Below, in pieces: positions 1 to 6,412 of a DNA stretch of 64,000 nucleotides (positions are counted from its first letter, which is position 1; the number at the start of each line of letters is the position of its first letter). The notes beneath the pieces were generated by a model that was not told where the DNA came from, searched no databases, and saw only the letters and a program-made list of their open reading frames with translations. The position numbers and the translations under genes were made by a program. The DNA comes from Bradyrhizobium oligotrophicum S58 (GTDB taxonomy: Bacteria > Pseudomonadota > Alphaproteobacteria > Rhizobiales > Xanthobacteraceae): contig NC_020453.1 in the NCBI RefSeq assembly GCF_000344805.1, positions 3,505,001-3,569,000 of the forward strand. The letters are read 5' to 3'.

Positions 1-1467
1 GGGACGTCGATGACCACCACAGCGGGGTCCGAAGCAGGGACGGCCACCGTTGCGCCGGGGTCCGCCAAACCCGACAGCTCAGCGACAGCTGCTGGCGCGG
101 CGGCATCCGTGCAGCTGTCGCCGGGCACGTCGCCTCGAATGAGCTTGACGGCACCGCTTGCGCCGAACGATCCGCGCAGCAAGCTCTTGCCTCCGATCGA
201 TACGACCAGCACTGACACAGCTGAGGCTCAGAACGCAGGCCGGCTTCCGTCGCTGTTGCCGACTATCAATCCAAGGGCAGGGCTTGCAGGGTCGAGCGCC
301 GGGGAAGCCGGCTCCAGATTCAGCCACTCGATGGCGCAGGGGCCGTGTGCATCGTGCCACAACGGAACGAGCGCGCCTGGCAAGCCGCCGAAGCACATTG
401 CGACGGCTGCGCCGTGCGAGACCTGCCATAAGAGCACGACGACGTTCAGCGGAGCCCGCTTCAGCCACACCGGAGCGGCGGCAGCCTGCGCGAGCTGTCA
501 CAACGGCATGACTGCGACCGGCAAGCCGCAGAAGCACGTTGCGACGAACGCGCCGTGCGAGACCTGCCACAAGAGCACGACGACGTTCAGCGGAGCGCGC
601 TTCAGTCACACCGCGACGACGGCGGCTTGTGCGAGCTGCCATAACGGCATGGCCGCGAGCGGCAAGCCGCAGAAGCACGTCGCGACCAATGCGCCGTGCG
701 AGACCTGCCACAAGAGCACGACGACGTTCAGCGGAGCGCGCTTCAGTCACACCGCGACGACGGCGGCCTGTGCGAGCTGCCATAACGGCATGGCAGCGAG
801 CGGCAAGCCGCAGAAGCACGTCGCGACCAACGCGCCATGCGAGACCTGCCACAAGAGCACGACGACGTTCAGCGGCGCCCGCTTCAGCCACTCCGGCACG
901 ATGGCGGCCTGCTCCAGCTGCCACAACGGATCATCGGCCGGCGGCAAGCCGCCGCGTCACGTGGTCACCAGCGCGCCATGCGAAAGCTGCCACAAGAACA
1001 CCGTGTCGTTCTCGGGCGCGCGGATGGATCACACCAGCCTGACCGCGCCATGCGTCAGCTGTCACAATGGCTCGAATGCGACCGGCAAGTCGCCGAAGCA
1101 CTTCGTGACCAACGTCCCCTGCGAGAGCTGCCACCGGACGGTCAGCTGGAGCTCGATCAACTACCGGCATATGTCGACGAGCTATCCGAATCACAGTGCC
1201 GCCATCGGCTGCACGGCCTGTCACAGCGGCAACTCGCAAGCCGTCTTGTTCAAGTTCGCGGCCTACAAGCCCGACTGCGCCGCCTGTCACGCCAGTGATT
1301 TCCGGCCGCAGCAGCACGCCAAGCTCGTGAAGCCGGCGCCGATGGACTACACCGTCGCCGAGCTCAAGGACTGCACCGGCGCGTGCCATATCTATGCTGA
1401 CAAGTCGCAGACCACCATCGTCACCCGCCGCCAGCGGCAGCATCGGGTCAATGGAGGTGGCTGGTGA
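1..1467 (+). CDS. Multihaem c-type cytochrome with six tandem di-haem repeats (5' partial)
   Basis: The frame is open to base 1 and no signal peptide is visible, so the true start is probably upstream; the first ATG in the window is at 10. The protein carries 14 CxxCH haem motifs plus a final CTGACH (CxxxCH), suggesting up to 15 haems. Twelve of them lie in six exact 47-residue repeats (bases 313-1158), each with one CASCH-type and one CETCH-type motif. Each repeat also has two further conserved His (in FSHT and PQKHV) that could serve as distal ligands for bis-His haem iron. An Ala/Ser/Thr/Pro-rich stretch of about 100 residues precedes the repeats. A periplasmic or outer-surface electron-transfer role is inferred from this architecture. 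It overlaps the downstream barrel gene by 4 bases, so they are probably co-translated. Confidence 0.88.
   Translation, partial: GTSMTTTAGSEAGTATVAPGSAKPDSSATAAGAAASVQLSPGTSPRMSLTAPLAPNDPRSKLLPPIDTTSTDTAEAQNAGRLPSLLPTINPRAGLAGSSAGEAGSRFSHSMAQGPCASCHNGTSAPGKPPKHIATAAPCETCHKSTTTFSGARFSHTGAAAACASCHNGMTATGKPQKHVATNAPCETCHKSTTTFSGARFSHTATTAACASCHNGMAASGKPQKHVATNAPCETCHKSTTTFSGARFSHTATTAACASCHNGMAASGKPQKHVATNAPCETCHKSTTTFSGARFSHSGTMAACSSCHNGSSAGGKPPRHVVTSAPCESCHKNTVSFSGARMDHTSLTAPCVSCHNGSNATGKSPKHFVTNVPCESCHRTVSWSSINYRHMSTSYPNHSAAIGCTACHSGNSQAVLFKFAAYKPDCAACHASDFRPQQHAKLVKPAPMDYTVAELKDCTGACHIYADKSQTTIVTRRQRQHRVNGGGW
313..1158 (+). repeat. Six in-frame 141-bp tandem repeats within the multihaem cytochrome gene
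   Basis: Six consecutive 141-bp units start at 313, 454, 595, 736, 877 and 1018, each encoding 47 residues and two haem motifs. Units 3 and 4 (595-876) are nearly identical at the DNA level, whereas units 1, 5 and 6 have diverged. This suggests recent unit duplication or homogenisation, and copy number may differ between strains. Confidence 0.93.
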
Positions 1468-4400
1468 TGCGCGGCCGCTCCGGACAAGTCGCGGCTGCGA
1501 GGTCGGCGGGATGGCGGATCAGTCTGCTGTCCGTCTTTCTTGCACTCCTGCTCGATGGCGGCTTCGGCGTCGCACCGGCCCAGCCGGTCATCGATCAGTT
1601 CGTCGCCGGCGCGAACGCCACCACGGTCGGAAACTGCAGCCTCCTGCGCGTCAATTTTCACGTCCGTGTCCGCTACACCGGGCATTTTCCGCTTGATCAG
1701 GGCAGCCAGCTCAGCGTCTCGCTGCAACTGGTGGATCGGGACGCCATCATGGCGCGGCGCCTGGTCAGGCGCGAAGGCGTGCGTGTCGACAATGCCCAGG
1801 GCTCCGGCATCCAGGACGTCTATCTGACGCTCGATCAGAACAGGGGACCGATCCTCGTCGTCCAGCTTGCCGGCGAGTTCGCCTACCAGATCGTGCAGTC
1901 CGGCAGCTTCGAGCAGGTGGCGATCGTGATTGCCCGAAAGGGCCCGGTGTCGGCTTGCAAGGTGAAAGCCCTGGTGCCGAACGTGGCCGCTCCGGATGCG
2001 CCGAAACCGGCTGCGGTCCCCGGCGCGGCGGCGTCGGTCCGCAACGACAACCGCACGATGCAGCAGCCGTCCGCAGCGGACATCCGGTTTGCGGAGGCCT
2101 CGATGGACGAGGCGCGCGCATCGATCAAGAAAGGCAATTTCAGCGCCGCGATCGATCTCTTGAGGAAGGTGCTGAAACTCCCTGAAAACGGCTCGAGCGC
2201 CGAGGCGCAGGAGCTGCTCGGCGTTGCGCGCCAGAAGGCCGGCCAGACCGCTGCCGCCCAGGCCGAATATGAGGACTATCTGCGCCGCTATCCGAGCGGC
2301 GAGGGTGCCGAGCGGGTGCGGCAGCGGCTCGCCGCACTCCTCACCGCAACCAGCAGCGCACCGGCGCGACCGCGCGACATGTCTCCTGCCACGTCCGACG
2401 GCGGAGACATGGGGATGGCGACGAAGGCGATAGGGCCGAACGGTGATACCCGCTGGACGATGTCGGGCAGCCTCTCGACGACCTTCATCACCAACGACAC
2501 GACGAGCGCCGTCAAGGACAGGGCGCTTGCGCCGAACCCGAATGCCGATCCCGATGCCCACCGGGTTCACCAGAACACGCTGCTGACCAATTTCGACTAC
2601 CTCGGAACGTCGGACAACGATCGCATCAGGACCAAGTTCAGGCTGGCCTTCACCCATGAGCGCCAGTTCGATACCGGAAACGACAAGTACGGCGTGTCGA
2701 CCGCGCAGGTCGATTATACCCTGAAGGAAGCCGACGTGACGTTGCGGGTCGGACGGCAGTCCCGCAACACCGGCGGCGTCATCGGTCGTTTCGACGGCGC
2801 GGTGCTGAGCTGGCAGAAGAGCCCCGGGCTGCGCTTGAACGTGCTCGCGGGCTCGCCGAACTGGAGCCGCTTCGACGCGCCGTTCAAGGACGGCAAGACG
2901 CTCTACGGCGCAAGCATCGACTTCGGCAAGATCCTGGGTGGGCTCGAAACCACCGTCTACCTGATCTCGCAATACGACCGCAACATCGTCGACCGCCAGG
3001 CCATCGGCGCCGAATTCCGCTACTTCGACACCAACAAATCGCTGCTCGGCCTGATCGACTACGACACGCATTTCCGCGCGCTCAATGCCGCCGTGTTCTC
3101 CGGAACCTATACGTTCGAGGACAAGTCGGTCATCAACGCCTCCTTTGACTACCGAAGAGTTCCATTTCTCTCGACCTGGAATGCGTTGCAGGGGCAGCCG
3201 TTTCTCACGATCTACGACATGATGAAGTTCAATACCGCGGGCGAGATCAGGCAACTCGCGATCGACCGGACACCGACGTTCCAGTCGGCGATGGTGAGCT
3301 ACTCGCGGCCTTTGAACGAGACCTGGCAGGTCGCCGCCGATGCCACGGTGACCAATCTGACCGGCACGCTGCCGTCCGGGGGCGTCGACGGCACGCCGGC
3401 GAGCGGTCTCGAATATTACCTGTCGGCTCAGCTGACCGGGAACGGCATCATCAAGCCAGGCGATCTGTTCATGGGCGCGCTGCGCTACGCGAGCCTGGCG
3501 GATTCGAAGTTCTACGTGCTCGATCTCGCCACGCGCTATCCGATCACGCCCGATCTCGCCATCAGCCCGCGGCTGCGCATGGGCTACAGGTCCGGGACGA
3601 AGACCGACCTGAAGGAGTACACGATCCTGCCGTCGCTGCTGGTCAGCTATCTCTGGTCGAAGGAGATCAGCATGGAAACGGAGATCGGCTATAGGTTCGT
3701 CGACAGCACGCTGGCCAACGTCAAGACGACGACCAAGGATCTGTTCGCGACCGTCACGTTGCGGCGCGACTTCAACGCCGACGGTGTCACCAAGTGCAGC
3801 GCCTCGATCGTCAGCTGCGCCTGGGCCAGGCCCGCAGCGTTGCAGGGCGGGCAGGGGGTGGGCTCGGGCGACATGCCGCTGCAGTCGCGCGCGTCGATTC
3901 CGCCGTCCTACATGCTGGAGACCGGTGTGCGCTACTGGTTCAGCTCGGGCCAGAATCGCTATCGTTATTTCGCCGACCAGGCCGCCACGCAACAAGTCTC
4001 CCGGCTCGCCTATGGCGGCATGACCGGGCACAGTGGCGAGATGTTCTTCAGGGTCGATGCGCTCGACGGACCCTTCACCAACATGTTCCTGAAGGGCTAC
4101 ATCGGAGCGGGCAAGATCAGCTCGGGCACGCTGGTCGACGAGGACTTCGCTCCGTTCGTCAATCCCTCGTCCAAGACCGTCAGCAGGATCGGCGGAGGGC
4201 TGCAATACGCGAACCTCGATGTGGGCTTCAATCTGCTGGAGACGGAGCGCTTCCGGCTTGGCGCCTTCGTCGGCTATCAGTATTGGGCGGAAACCGTCGA
4301 CGCGCGAGGCTGCACCCAGGTGGGCGGCAATCCGGTGATCTGCAGTCCGGCGCTGGGCGCTGGCGTCAAGGTGGTGACCGAGCAGGACCGGTGGCACAGC

Positions 4401-4727
4401 GGACGGGCCGGAGTCTCACTCGACACGCGGCTGTCGGATCGGCTCAACTGGCAGGTGGAGGCCGCCTATGTCTGGACCTCGCAGAACGCGATCGACACGC
4501 ACTATTTCACGTTCGGTCGCGATCCTGCTTCTGGACAAGGAAGCGGCTTCCAGACCGAGACCGTCCTGAACTATCAGCTGACCGACAATTTCCGCATCGG
4601 AATCGGTGGGCGCTGGTGGCATCTCAGCACCAATGCTGTCGACTCGTTCAATCAAGTCCTGAGATATACGACGGAGCGCTACGGCGTCTTCCTGCAGGGC
4701 TCCTACCAGTTCAATCGGGCAAAATAG
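1464..4727 (+). CDS. Outer-membrane beta-barrel protein with N-terminal periplasmic TPR-like domain
   Basis: 1087 residues. The first codons are GTG-ATG (1464/1467) after the Shine-Dalgarno-like GGAGG at 1454, and the gene overlaps the cytochrome gene. A signal peptide (hydrophobic core about 18-35, likely cleavage after PAQ) is followed by a beta-rich domain (about 45-180), then a helical tetratricopeptide-like domain (about 210-300, with Ala-rich helices and a YEDYLRRYP element). The last roughly 750 residues alternate aromatic and polar positions, as in a large outer-membrane barrel. The adjacent multihaem cytochrome suggests a porin-cytochrome pairing analogous in principle to MtrAB or PioAB. 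I see no clear MtrB signature, so the analogy is inference; a polysaccharide-export or generic porin role is the alternative. Confidence 0.72.
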
Positions 4728-4746
4728 TCGACCGGAGTGGTCCATC

Positions 4747-6024
4747 ATGAACTACCAGATACGGCCATCCGGCCTTCTTCCCGAGTACGAGGCGATGTTC
4801 CGCGAGGCATTGGATCGGCTGCATCAGGAACGACGCTATCGTGTCTTTGCGGATCTCGAACGGCTGGCGGGCCGCTATCCCTACGCGATCTGGCATTCGG
4901 AGGAGGGCGAGCGCGAGGTCGTGATCTGGTGCTCGAACGACTATCTGGGCATGAGCCAACACCCGAAGGTCATCAGCGCCATGATCGATACCGCGTGGCG
5001 CATGGGCGCAGGTGCCGGCGGCACCCGCAACATCGCGGGGACGAACCACCCGCTCGTCGCCCTCGAGAGGGAGCTGGCGGATCTCCACGGCAAGGAGGCT
5101 GCGCTGGTGTTTACCTCGGGCTATGTTTCCAACGAGGCGGGGATATCGACCATCGCCAAGCTGCTGCCGCGGTGTCTGCTGCTGTCCGACGCCTTGAACC
5201 ACAACTCCATGATCGAGGGGGTTCGCAAGGCCGGCGCCGAGAAGCAGATCTGGCAGCACAATGATACGGATCATCTCGAGCGTCTGCTGCGCGCAGCCGA
5301 TCCCGAACGGCCGAAGCTGATCGTGTGCGAGAGCCTCTACTCCATGGACGGCGATATCGCGCCTCTGCATCGAATTTGCGATCTGGCCGAGCGCTACGGC
5401 GCGCTGACCTATGTCGACGAGGTGCACGCGGTCGGGATGTACGGCGCGCGCGGCGGCGGCATCGCGGAGCGCGATGGTGTGATGGAAAGGATCGACATTA
5501 TCGAGGGCACGCTGGCAAAGGCCTATGGCTGCCTCGGCGGCTATCTTGCTGCCGGGGTGAACCTGGTCGATGCGGTGCGCTCCTACGCCCCCGGGTTCAT
5601 CTTCACGACGGCATTGCCGCCGCCGGTCTGCGCAGCCGCGACCGCCGCGATCCGGCATCTGAAAGTCTCGACGGCAGAGCGCAGCCGGCATCAGGAACGT
5701 GCCGCGCGCCTGAAGTCCACCCTGATCGCCGCAGATATTCCGGTGATGCCGAGCGAGAGCCATATCGTGCCGGTGCATGTCGGCGATCCCGAGAAGTGCA
5801 GGGCGGCGTCGGACCTGCTGATGTCGGAGCACGGCATCTACATCCAGCCGATCAACTACCCCACGGTTCGGCGAGGAATGGAACGCCTACGCCTCACACC
5901 AACGCCGTATCACGACGACGCACTGATGGACCGGCTGGTCGATGCGATGGTCGAGGTGTGGGACAGACTCCACCTCCGCTTCCGCCGGGACAGTGACCTG
6001 TCGCGCGGGAACGAGACGCGATAG
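4747..6024 (+). CDS. hemA: 5-aminolevulinate synthase (ALAS) in a cytochrome operon
   Basis: 425 residues, the usual ALAS length plus a short C-terminal tail. The enzyme condenses glycine and succinyl-CoA to 5-aminolevulinate using pyridoxal phosphate, the first step of haem synthesis in alphaproteobacteria. Seen: WCSNDYLGM near residue 65, the [12 protein letters not shown] glycine-rich stretch, YVDEVHAVG, and the PLP lysine in GTLAKAYG (Lys258). The gene starts 19 bases after the barrel gene on the same strand, so the three genes form a likely operon. Because ALAS is normally a stand-alone housekeeping gene here, this is probably an accessory copy raising haem supply for the 15-haem cytochrome. 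The housekeeping copy would lie outside this window, so its existence is inferred. Confidence 0.93.
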
Positions 6025-6335: not shown

Positions 6336-6412
6336 TGGCGCGCTCGGAGAGATTCGAACTCCCGACCCTCGGAATCGAAATCCGATGCTCTATCCAGCTG
6401 AGCTACGAGCGC
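6336..6412 (-). tRNA. tRNA-Arg (anticodon UCG)
   Basis: 77-nt cloverleaf on the minus strand with a 7-bp acceptor stem (GCGCTCG/CGAGCGC), discriminator G and encoded CCA. The D arm contains AGCTCAGCTGGATAGAGC, the anticodon stem TCGGA/TCCGA encloses the loop TTTCGAT, and the T loop is TTCGAAT. The anticodon UCG reads the arginine codon CGA. Confidence 0.97.

Follow-up and report, generated by a model that had tools for sequence, protein, structure and literature searches.

Outer-membrane electron conduits of the MtrAB, MtoAB and PioAB type consist of an outer-membrane barrel and a periplasmic decahaem cytochrome. A different porin-cytochrome system, PCC3, was proposed by He et al. 2017 (PMC5566968), whose main text describes a porin together with extracellular and periplasmic multihaem cytochromes and an inner-membrane protein (IMP) of about 300 amino acids with three motifs, and names an 85-haem protein of 'Agromonas oligotrophica S58' as the largest then reported to the authors' knowledge. 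In the main texts of the PCC3 papers, electron transfer across the outer membrane is a prediction, and later work still treats the system as predicted (PMC10734462, PMC12442390, PMC13386937). For Sideroxydans CL21, the text of PMC12442390 gives above-mean expression of both PCC3 copies and an increase of one of the two IMPs with iron oxidation. Here we analyse a window of 64,000 nucleotides from Bradyrhizobium oligotrophicum S58 (C1:3505001-3569000 of a genome of 8,264,165 bp) that opens within such a cluster. Judged from its sequence, the S58 cluster is a PCC3 porin-cytochrome system, and we consider it likely that it forms a PCC3-type extracellular electron conduit, in a Bradyrhizobium version to which a haem-synthesis gene is linked and whose porin carries a second, omptin-like barrel. 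A first-pass annotation had suggested that the conduit could be undescribed; because He et al. had already described PCC3 and named the protein of this strain, it is not new. What goes beyond the text of the PCC3 papers found is the omptin-barrel fusion, the linkage to genes for 5-aminolevulinate synthase (ALAS) and CcmF, and a relative with 124 haem motifs.

The cluster has the order IMP, 18-haem cytochrome, 86-haem cytochrome, porin, ALAS, with further conduit genes upstream of window base 1, and thus combines the components of PCC3, namely a porin, a putative extracellular and a putative periplasmic multihaem cytochrome, and an IMP. The first two genes lie upstream of the giant cytochrome on the same strand and encode a 292-residue membrane protein (L009:10003-10881) and a 453-residue protein with 18 CxxCH motifs (L009:10891-12252). 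PCC3 inner-membrane proteins are about 300 residues long and have five helices, with WX3HX13H on helices 3 and 5 and SGXXG on helix 4; in the S58 protein the first motif occurs at positions 84 and 267 and the second at position 125, corresponding to the third, last and fourth hydrophobic helices. The two WX3HX13H motifs probably represent two b haems. The ratio of amino acids to haems, 22-39 in PCC3, amounts to about 30 for the giant frame (2581 codons/86) and 25 for the 453-residue protein. As in MtrAB, MtoAB and PioAB an outer-membrane barrel is paired with a periplasmic multihaem cytochrome, but the S58 cytochromes are built from repeats and have 18 and 86 haem motifs. PF11854 gave no match, either with the porin (E<=0.5) or across the whole genome (E<=1), and an MtrB/PioB porin was therefore rejected; the first-pass view of a porin-cytochrome system is upheld. 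Rechecking of the open reading frames confirmed the coordinates first given for cytochrome frame, barrel gene and ALAS, and the gene order, which might have been a peculiarity of this strain, is kept in other strains.

Within the window the cytochrome frame (1..1467, plus strand) is the C-terminal part of the 86-haem protein. It begins with the in-window part of an Ala/Ser/Thr/Pro-rich stretch free of haem motifs (bases 1-345, plus strand), followed by 14 CxxCH motifs and one CxxxCH motif, most of them spaced by 23 or 24 residues and thus 47 per pair. The "15-haem cytochrome" of the first-pass annotation is an artefact of the window edge: the stretch seen in the window is the last fifth of a frame of 2,581 codons (C1:3498722-3506467) that reaches 6.3 kb upstream of the window and carries 85 CxxCH motifs and one CxxxCH motif, 86 in all. 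Its N terminus is a hydrophobic, signal-like stretch (judged by eye), which answers the concern that a secretion signal might be lacking upstream of base 1. The complete protein comprises a 71-haem part, the motif-free stretch of 213 residues, and the 15-haem end. In the 71-haem part a unit of 112 or 113 residues is present in 15 tandem copies, each with four haems according to motif spacing and with DNA identities of 76 to 99% among them, an arrangement that fits growth by duplication. Among Bradyrhizobium genomes the number of motifs per frame ranges from 44 in AUGA SZCCT0283 through 54 in MAG 1901, 74 in SSBR45G and 86 in S58 to 124 in BR13661 (123 CxxCH and one CxxxCH in a 3,721-codon frame on a single contig), haem counts being motif counts throughout and repeat copy numbers in draft assemblies being prone to error; three more Bradyrhizobium giant frames run off their contigs (L050, L051, L053). 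A frame from a Hyphomicrobiales metagenome-assembled genome that is open at the start of its stretch has at least 115 motifs. A literature search for a larger published haem count yielded nothing usable, and we do not claim 124 motifs as a record. Many PCC3 extracellular cytochromes from several phyla (L049-L128) end in a terminal CxxxCH followed by a TIxxRRxxxHRxxxGxW/F-like tail, which may be an anchoring or sorting end. A further multihaem frame with nine motifs in the fetched part is present downstream of the porin in a Hyphomicrobiales metagenome-assembled genome (L057 13297-13932, minus strand).

The porin gene (1464..4727, plus strand) encodes a PCC3-type outer-membrane protein of 1087 codons; its GTG start at 1464 overlaps the cytochrome end at 1467 by four bases, with ATG 1467 as an alternative start. 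The structure model predicts an N-terminal β domain (residues 47-157; 1602..1934, plus strand), helices resembling tetratricopeptide repeats (TPR; residues 204-296; 2073..2351, plus strand), for which matches to Pfam TPR families and fold matches to TPR chains were obtained, and a first barrel of 22 predicted strands (residues 329-776; 2448..3791, plus strand), which is the part common to other PCC3 porins. In the periplasm, the TPR-like domain is probably the docking site of a cytochrome. The MtrB chain 6r2q_B was listed by Foldseek with an E value of 3.9e-8, with TM scores of 0.16/0.25 and an rmsd of 24.7 that make it unusable as a superposition. A TPR-like domain followed by a barrel also resembles the exopolysaccharide exporters PgaA, BcsC and AlgK-AlgE, and AlgE is among the Foldseek matches; if the protein were such an exporter, the cytochromes would be neighbours with another job. 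This is very improbable, because AlgE is matched no better (E about 1e-6, TMt 0.37-0.38) than many other barrels with similarly weak scores, profile scans of the surrounding genes revealed no polysaccharide synthase, and a multihaem frame precedes the porin in 74 of 80 related PCC3 loci (38 alphaproteobacterial, 42 other) that served as our comparison set. Five of the six loci without such a frame (L093, L105, L115, L116, L123 and L128) hold little upstream sequence, the exception being L105. The exporter assignment that the first-pass annotation had named as a possible refutation is made unlikely by the gene context, not by the fold.

In the model, residues 814-1084 of the porin (3903..4715, plus strand) form a separate barrel of ten predicted strands with the omptin fold. 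OmpT Asp83, Asp85, Asp210 and His212, the catalytic positions of omptins, align to D892 and D894 (D892-E-D894; 4137..4145, plus strand) and to D1011 and H1013 (D1011-T-H1013; 4494..4502, plus strand). Fold and Asp-x-Asp/Asp-x-His positions are shared with OmpT and PF01278; by contrast, the S58 domain stays below the Pfam cut-off, is fused behind a TPR-porin and belongs to a group of its own, whose relatives occur as stand-alone proteins within this bacterial family. It may act as an outward-facing protease that trims or clears conduit proteins. There is, on the other hand, an appreciable if minority chance that it serves only as a structural second barrel (anchor, lipopolysaccharide contact or adhesin) devoid of protease activity, a reading supported by the sub-threshold Pfam score and from the fusion of the same domain to further barrel-like stretches in other genomes of the family. 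What speaks for catalysis is that the four positions are kept in all 27 rows of a domain set, at identities to the window sequence down to 37%, and in 62 to 65 of 65 fused rows; 15 of the 27 members match Pfam Omptin at E<=1, the best at 1.1e-9. Trimming of the cytochrome tail was considered and dropped: the CxxxCH and RR...HR tail is also found in PCC3 loci that lack the omptin domain and hence provides no specific evidence for omptin processing. The fusion is present in nine of the 80 PCC3 loci. In a survey of 391 genomes sampled from the host's family, 121 matched the porin query; among the matches listed, seven cover the porin part and the others only residues from about 760 on, so that PCC3 appears rare in the family and the omptin-like domain common. 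In seven loci (L028, L030, L033-L035, L039, L040) the domain stands behind small Omp25/31-looking stretches (by eye) in frames of 800-1000 residues, so that fusions of several barrels may be frequent among these bacteria.

The ALAS gene (4747..6024, plus strand) follows the porin end at 4727 after a gap of 19 bases. Its identification by the first-pass annotation stands, as the window copy, to which scoring was confined, matches TIGR01821 with 671.4 bits (cut-off 338.55), and the same order recurs in other strains. ALAS duplications of the hemA/hemT type are known from R. sphaeroides. S58 likewise is an alphaproteobacterium with extra copies, five ALAS-like genes of 58-100% identity (a sixth, distant match of 38% uncounted), but here one copy adjoins a giant cytochrome conduit, as it does in several other lineages. 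The four others are located at G000:C1:4282783-4283979 (82% identical to the PCC3 copy and away from PCC3), 857286-858506, 6666605-6667810 and 6845169-6846380 (in a region of low third-position G+C); one S58 copy stands among genes assigned by eye to the photosynthesis cluster. With matches defined by at least 45% identity and at least 200 residues and class taken from record titles, the fetched stretch includes an ALAS gene in 11 of the 38 alphaproteobacterial loci and in none of the 42 others, a 61-residue match at a contig end (L091) being left out. Where at least 2.5 kb of downstream sequence is available, the figures are 8 of 28 and 0 of 34, with 5 of 6 for Bradyrhizobium. Seven of these eight linked genes lie within 3 kb downstream, the chance expectation per 3-kb stretch being about 0.2%, an estimate that assumes five ALAS genes in 8.26 Mb and is to be read with the mutual dependence of the Bradyrhizobium loci in mind. 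In eight of the 11 cases ALAS shares the strand of the porin and lies no more than about 140 bases downstream of it.

A single origin of the PCC3-linked ALAS genes is contradicted by a tree of 35 rows (12 linked, 23 other), from which matches below 48% identity or 200 aligned residues and six rows repeating the same genes were omitted; such a tree cannot tell gain from loss. Six Bradyrhizobium PCC3 copies group with three unlinked copies (94/92, not starred), and these nine stand apart from eight other copies (100/100). The linked genes of Methylocystis, Caulobacterales, Hyphomicrobiaceae and Marinicaulis are placed elsewhere; the tree has seven label changes, at least five of which are forced by starred branches. 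Given this scattered placement, either ALAS became linked to PCC3 on several occasions or there was exchange of copies, and not all PCC3 loci have the link. The very high haem load and the linked haem-synthesis gene would also suit a protein that is chiefly an electron store (capacitor) or a haem or iron reserve and not a conduit, and storage has been raised for PCC3 in the text of PMC10734462. We regard this as rather unlikely, since storage alone needs no conserved porin, periplasmic cytochrome and inner-membrane partner, all of which recur in many lineages.

Compared with the main text on PCC3, S58 adds the omptin-like barrel as well as ALAS, ccm and iron-sulphur (FeS)/flavin neighbours. 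Divergently oriented upstream genes encode a Sel1/ankyrin protein (501 residues) and a FAD/4Fe-4S oxidoreductase (433 residues), which together occupy L009:6854-9647 on the minus strand, as well as CcmF, CcmG, CcmH, CcmI and a two-component pair of response regulator and histidine kinase; profile scans show a 4Fe-4S dicluster and a pyridine-nucleotide/FAD domain in the oxidoreductase. CcmF is near PCC3 in 13 of 38 alphaproteobacterial and 2 of 42 other loci, a raw count. CcmFGHI and regulators are found upstream in SSBR45G and BR13661 as well; a second ccmF elsewhere in the S58 genome is part of a set resembling a canonical ccm operon (by eye). The Sel1/ankyrin and FAD/4Fe-4S genes accompany PCC3 in many lineages: among the 34 loci where an IMP was found, the FeS/flavin gene is present in 28 and the ankyrin gene in 19. 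Upstream of the IMP and giant genes, a simple mismatch scan for sigma-54, sigma-70-like and FNR/FixK-type sites yielded nothing beyond weak sites, none of them of the FNR/FixK or sigma-70 kind. Directly downstream of ALAS, a tRNA-Arg(TCG) gene (6336-6412, minus strand) marks a possible insertion point of the cluster.

From these features we infer complex formation and the following path for electrons, which may run outward or inward. The cytoplasmic FeS/flavin oxidoreductase and the IMP would pass electrons to or from the quinone or NAD(P)H pool, and the 18-haem periplasmic cytochrome would ferry them to the outer membrane, where the porin, presumably with its TPR-like domain docking a cytochrome, would bring haems into contact across the membrane. 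Outside, the 15-haem end of the 86-haem protein would serve as a base, joined by a flexible linker to a 71-haem arm; the arm may lengthen by tandem duplication of the four-haem unit. Because each giant molecule would consume 86 haems, the linked ALAS could boost haem precursor supply and the linked CcmFGHI attach the haem. As a tentative and rather doubtful extension, the conduit may be self-maintaining, with a TPR-porin joined in one outer-membrane polypeptide to an active omptin-like protease barrel that matures or clears the surface cytochrome, an operon making its own haem, and a wire that evolves in repeat number (44 to 124 motifs in Bradyrhizobium).

Several observations weigh against the assignment as a PCC3-type conduit with these additions. 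The porin model has a pTM of only 0.59 and all Pfam TPR matches are below curated cut-offs. A PDB search with the IMP model gave nothing at E<=0.001, so that the b-haem proposal is based on the motifs. The omptin-like domain reaches 14.7 bits against PF01278 (cut-off 22.6), and neither the domain nor its profile retrieved an omptin from the PDB by sequence, all matches being at chance level. ALAS was not found in 20 of the 28 alphaproteobacterial loci with room for it, lies on the opposite strand in three of the 11 linked cases (Methylocystis and two Caulobacterales), and is reduced to remnants in B. aeschynomenes, the sixth Bradyrhizobium (L165, from 6247), where the porin frame is open. Sideroxydans ES-1 lowers expression of both its PCC3 clusters on Fe(II) (text of PMC8788666) and the listed extracellular PCC3 cytochrome has 0 in all eight proteome columns (text of PMC12016527), data that speak against Fe(II) oxidation as the job of PCC3 in this strain; a literature search found no experiment on a Bradyrhizobium PCC3.

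The main text of He et al. 2017 contains none of the terms hemA, aminolevulinate, ccm, omptin, protease, TPR, tetratricopeptide or ankyrin (PMC5566968), and 'omptin' and 'aminolevulinate' are without match in the main texts of the PCC3 papers found. Literature searches combining omptin, multiheme and porin, or 5-aminolevulinate synthase, multiheme cytochrome and gene cluster, returned no paper. 'Ccm' occurs in three of the PCC3 texts, as a culture-collection number, as ccm genes in a paper on Mn oxidation and as CcmA/CcmH in a table of genes, none of which the passages concerned place in PCC3.

Our analysis adds to the description of a system that occurs in many lineages and whose function is treated as a prediction in the texts on PCC3. 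S58 is in culture, its genome is complete and it has a single porin of this kind, so that PCC3 function could be tested there by deletion. The architecture of porin plus omptin-like barrel, not found in the PCC3 papers, suggests that surface proteolysis belongs to conduit assembly or upkeep. That several lineages carry a haem-synthesis gene next to this conduit suggests that giant cytochromes come at a cost in haem supply, and the variation from 44 to 124 motifs offers a natural series for asking what purpose the length of the wire serves.
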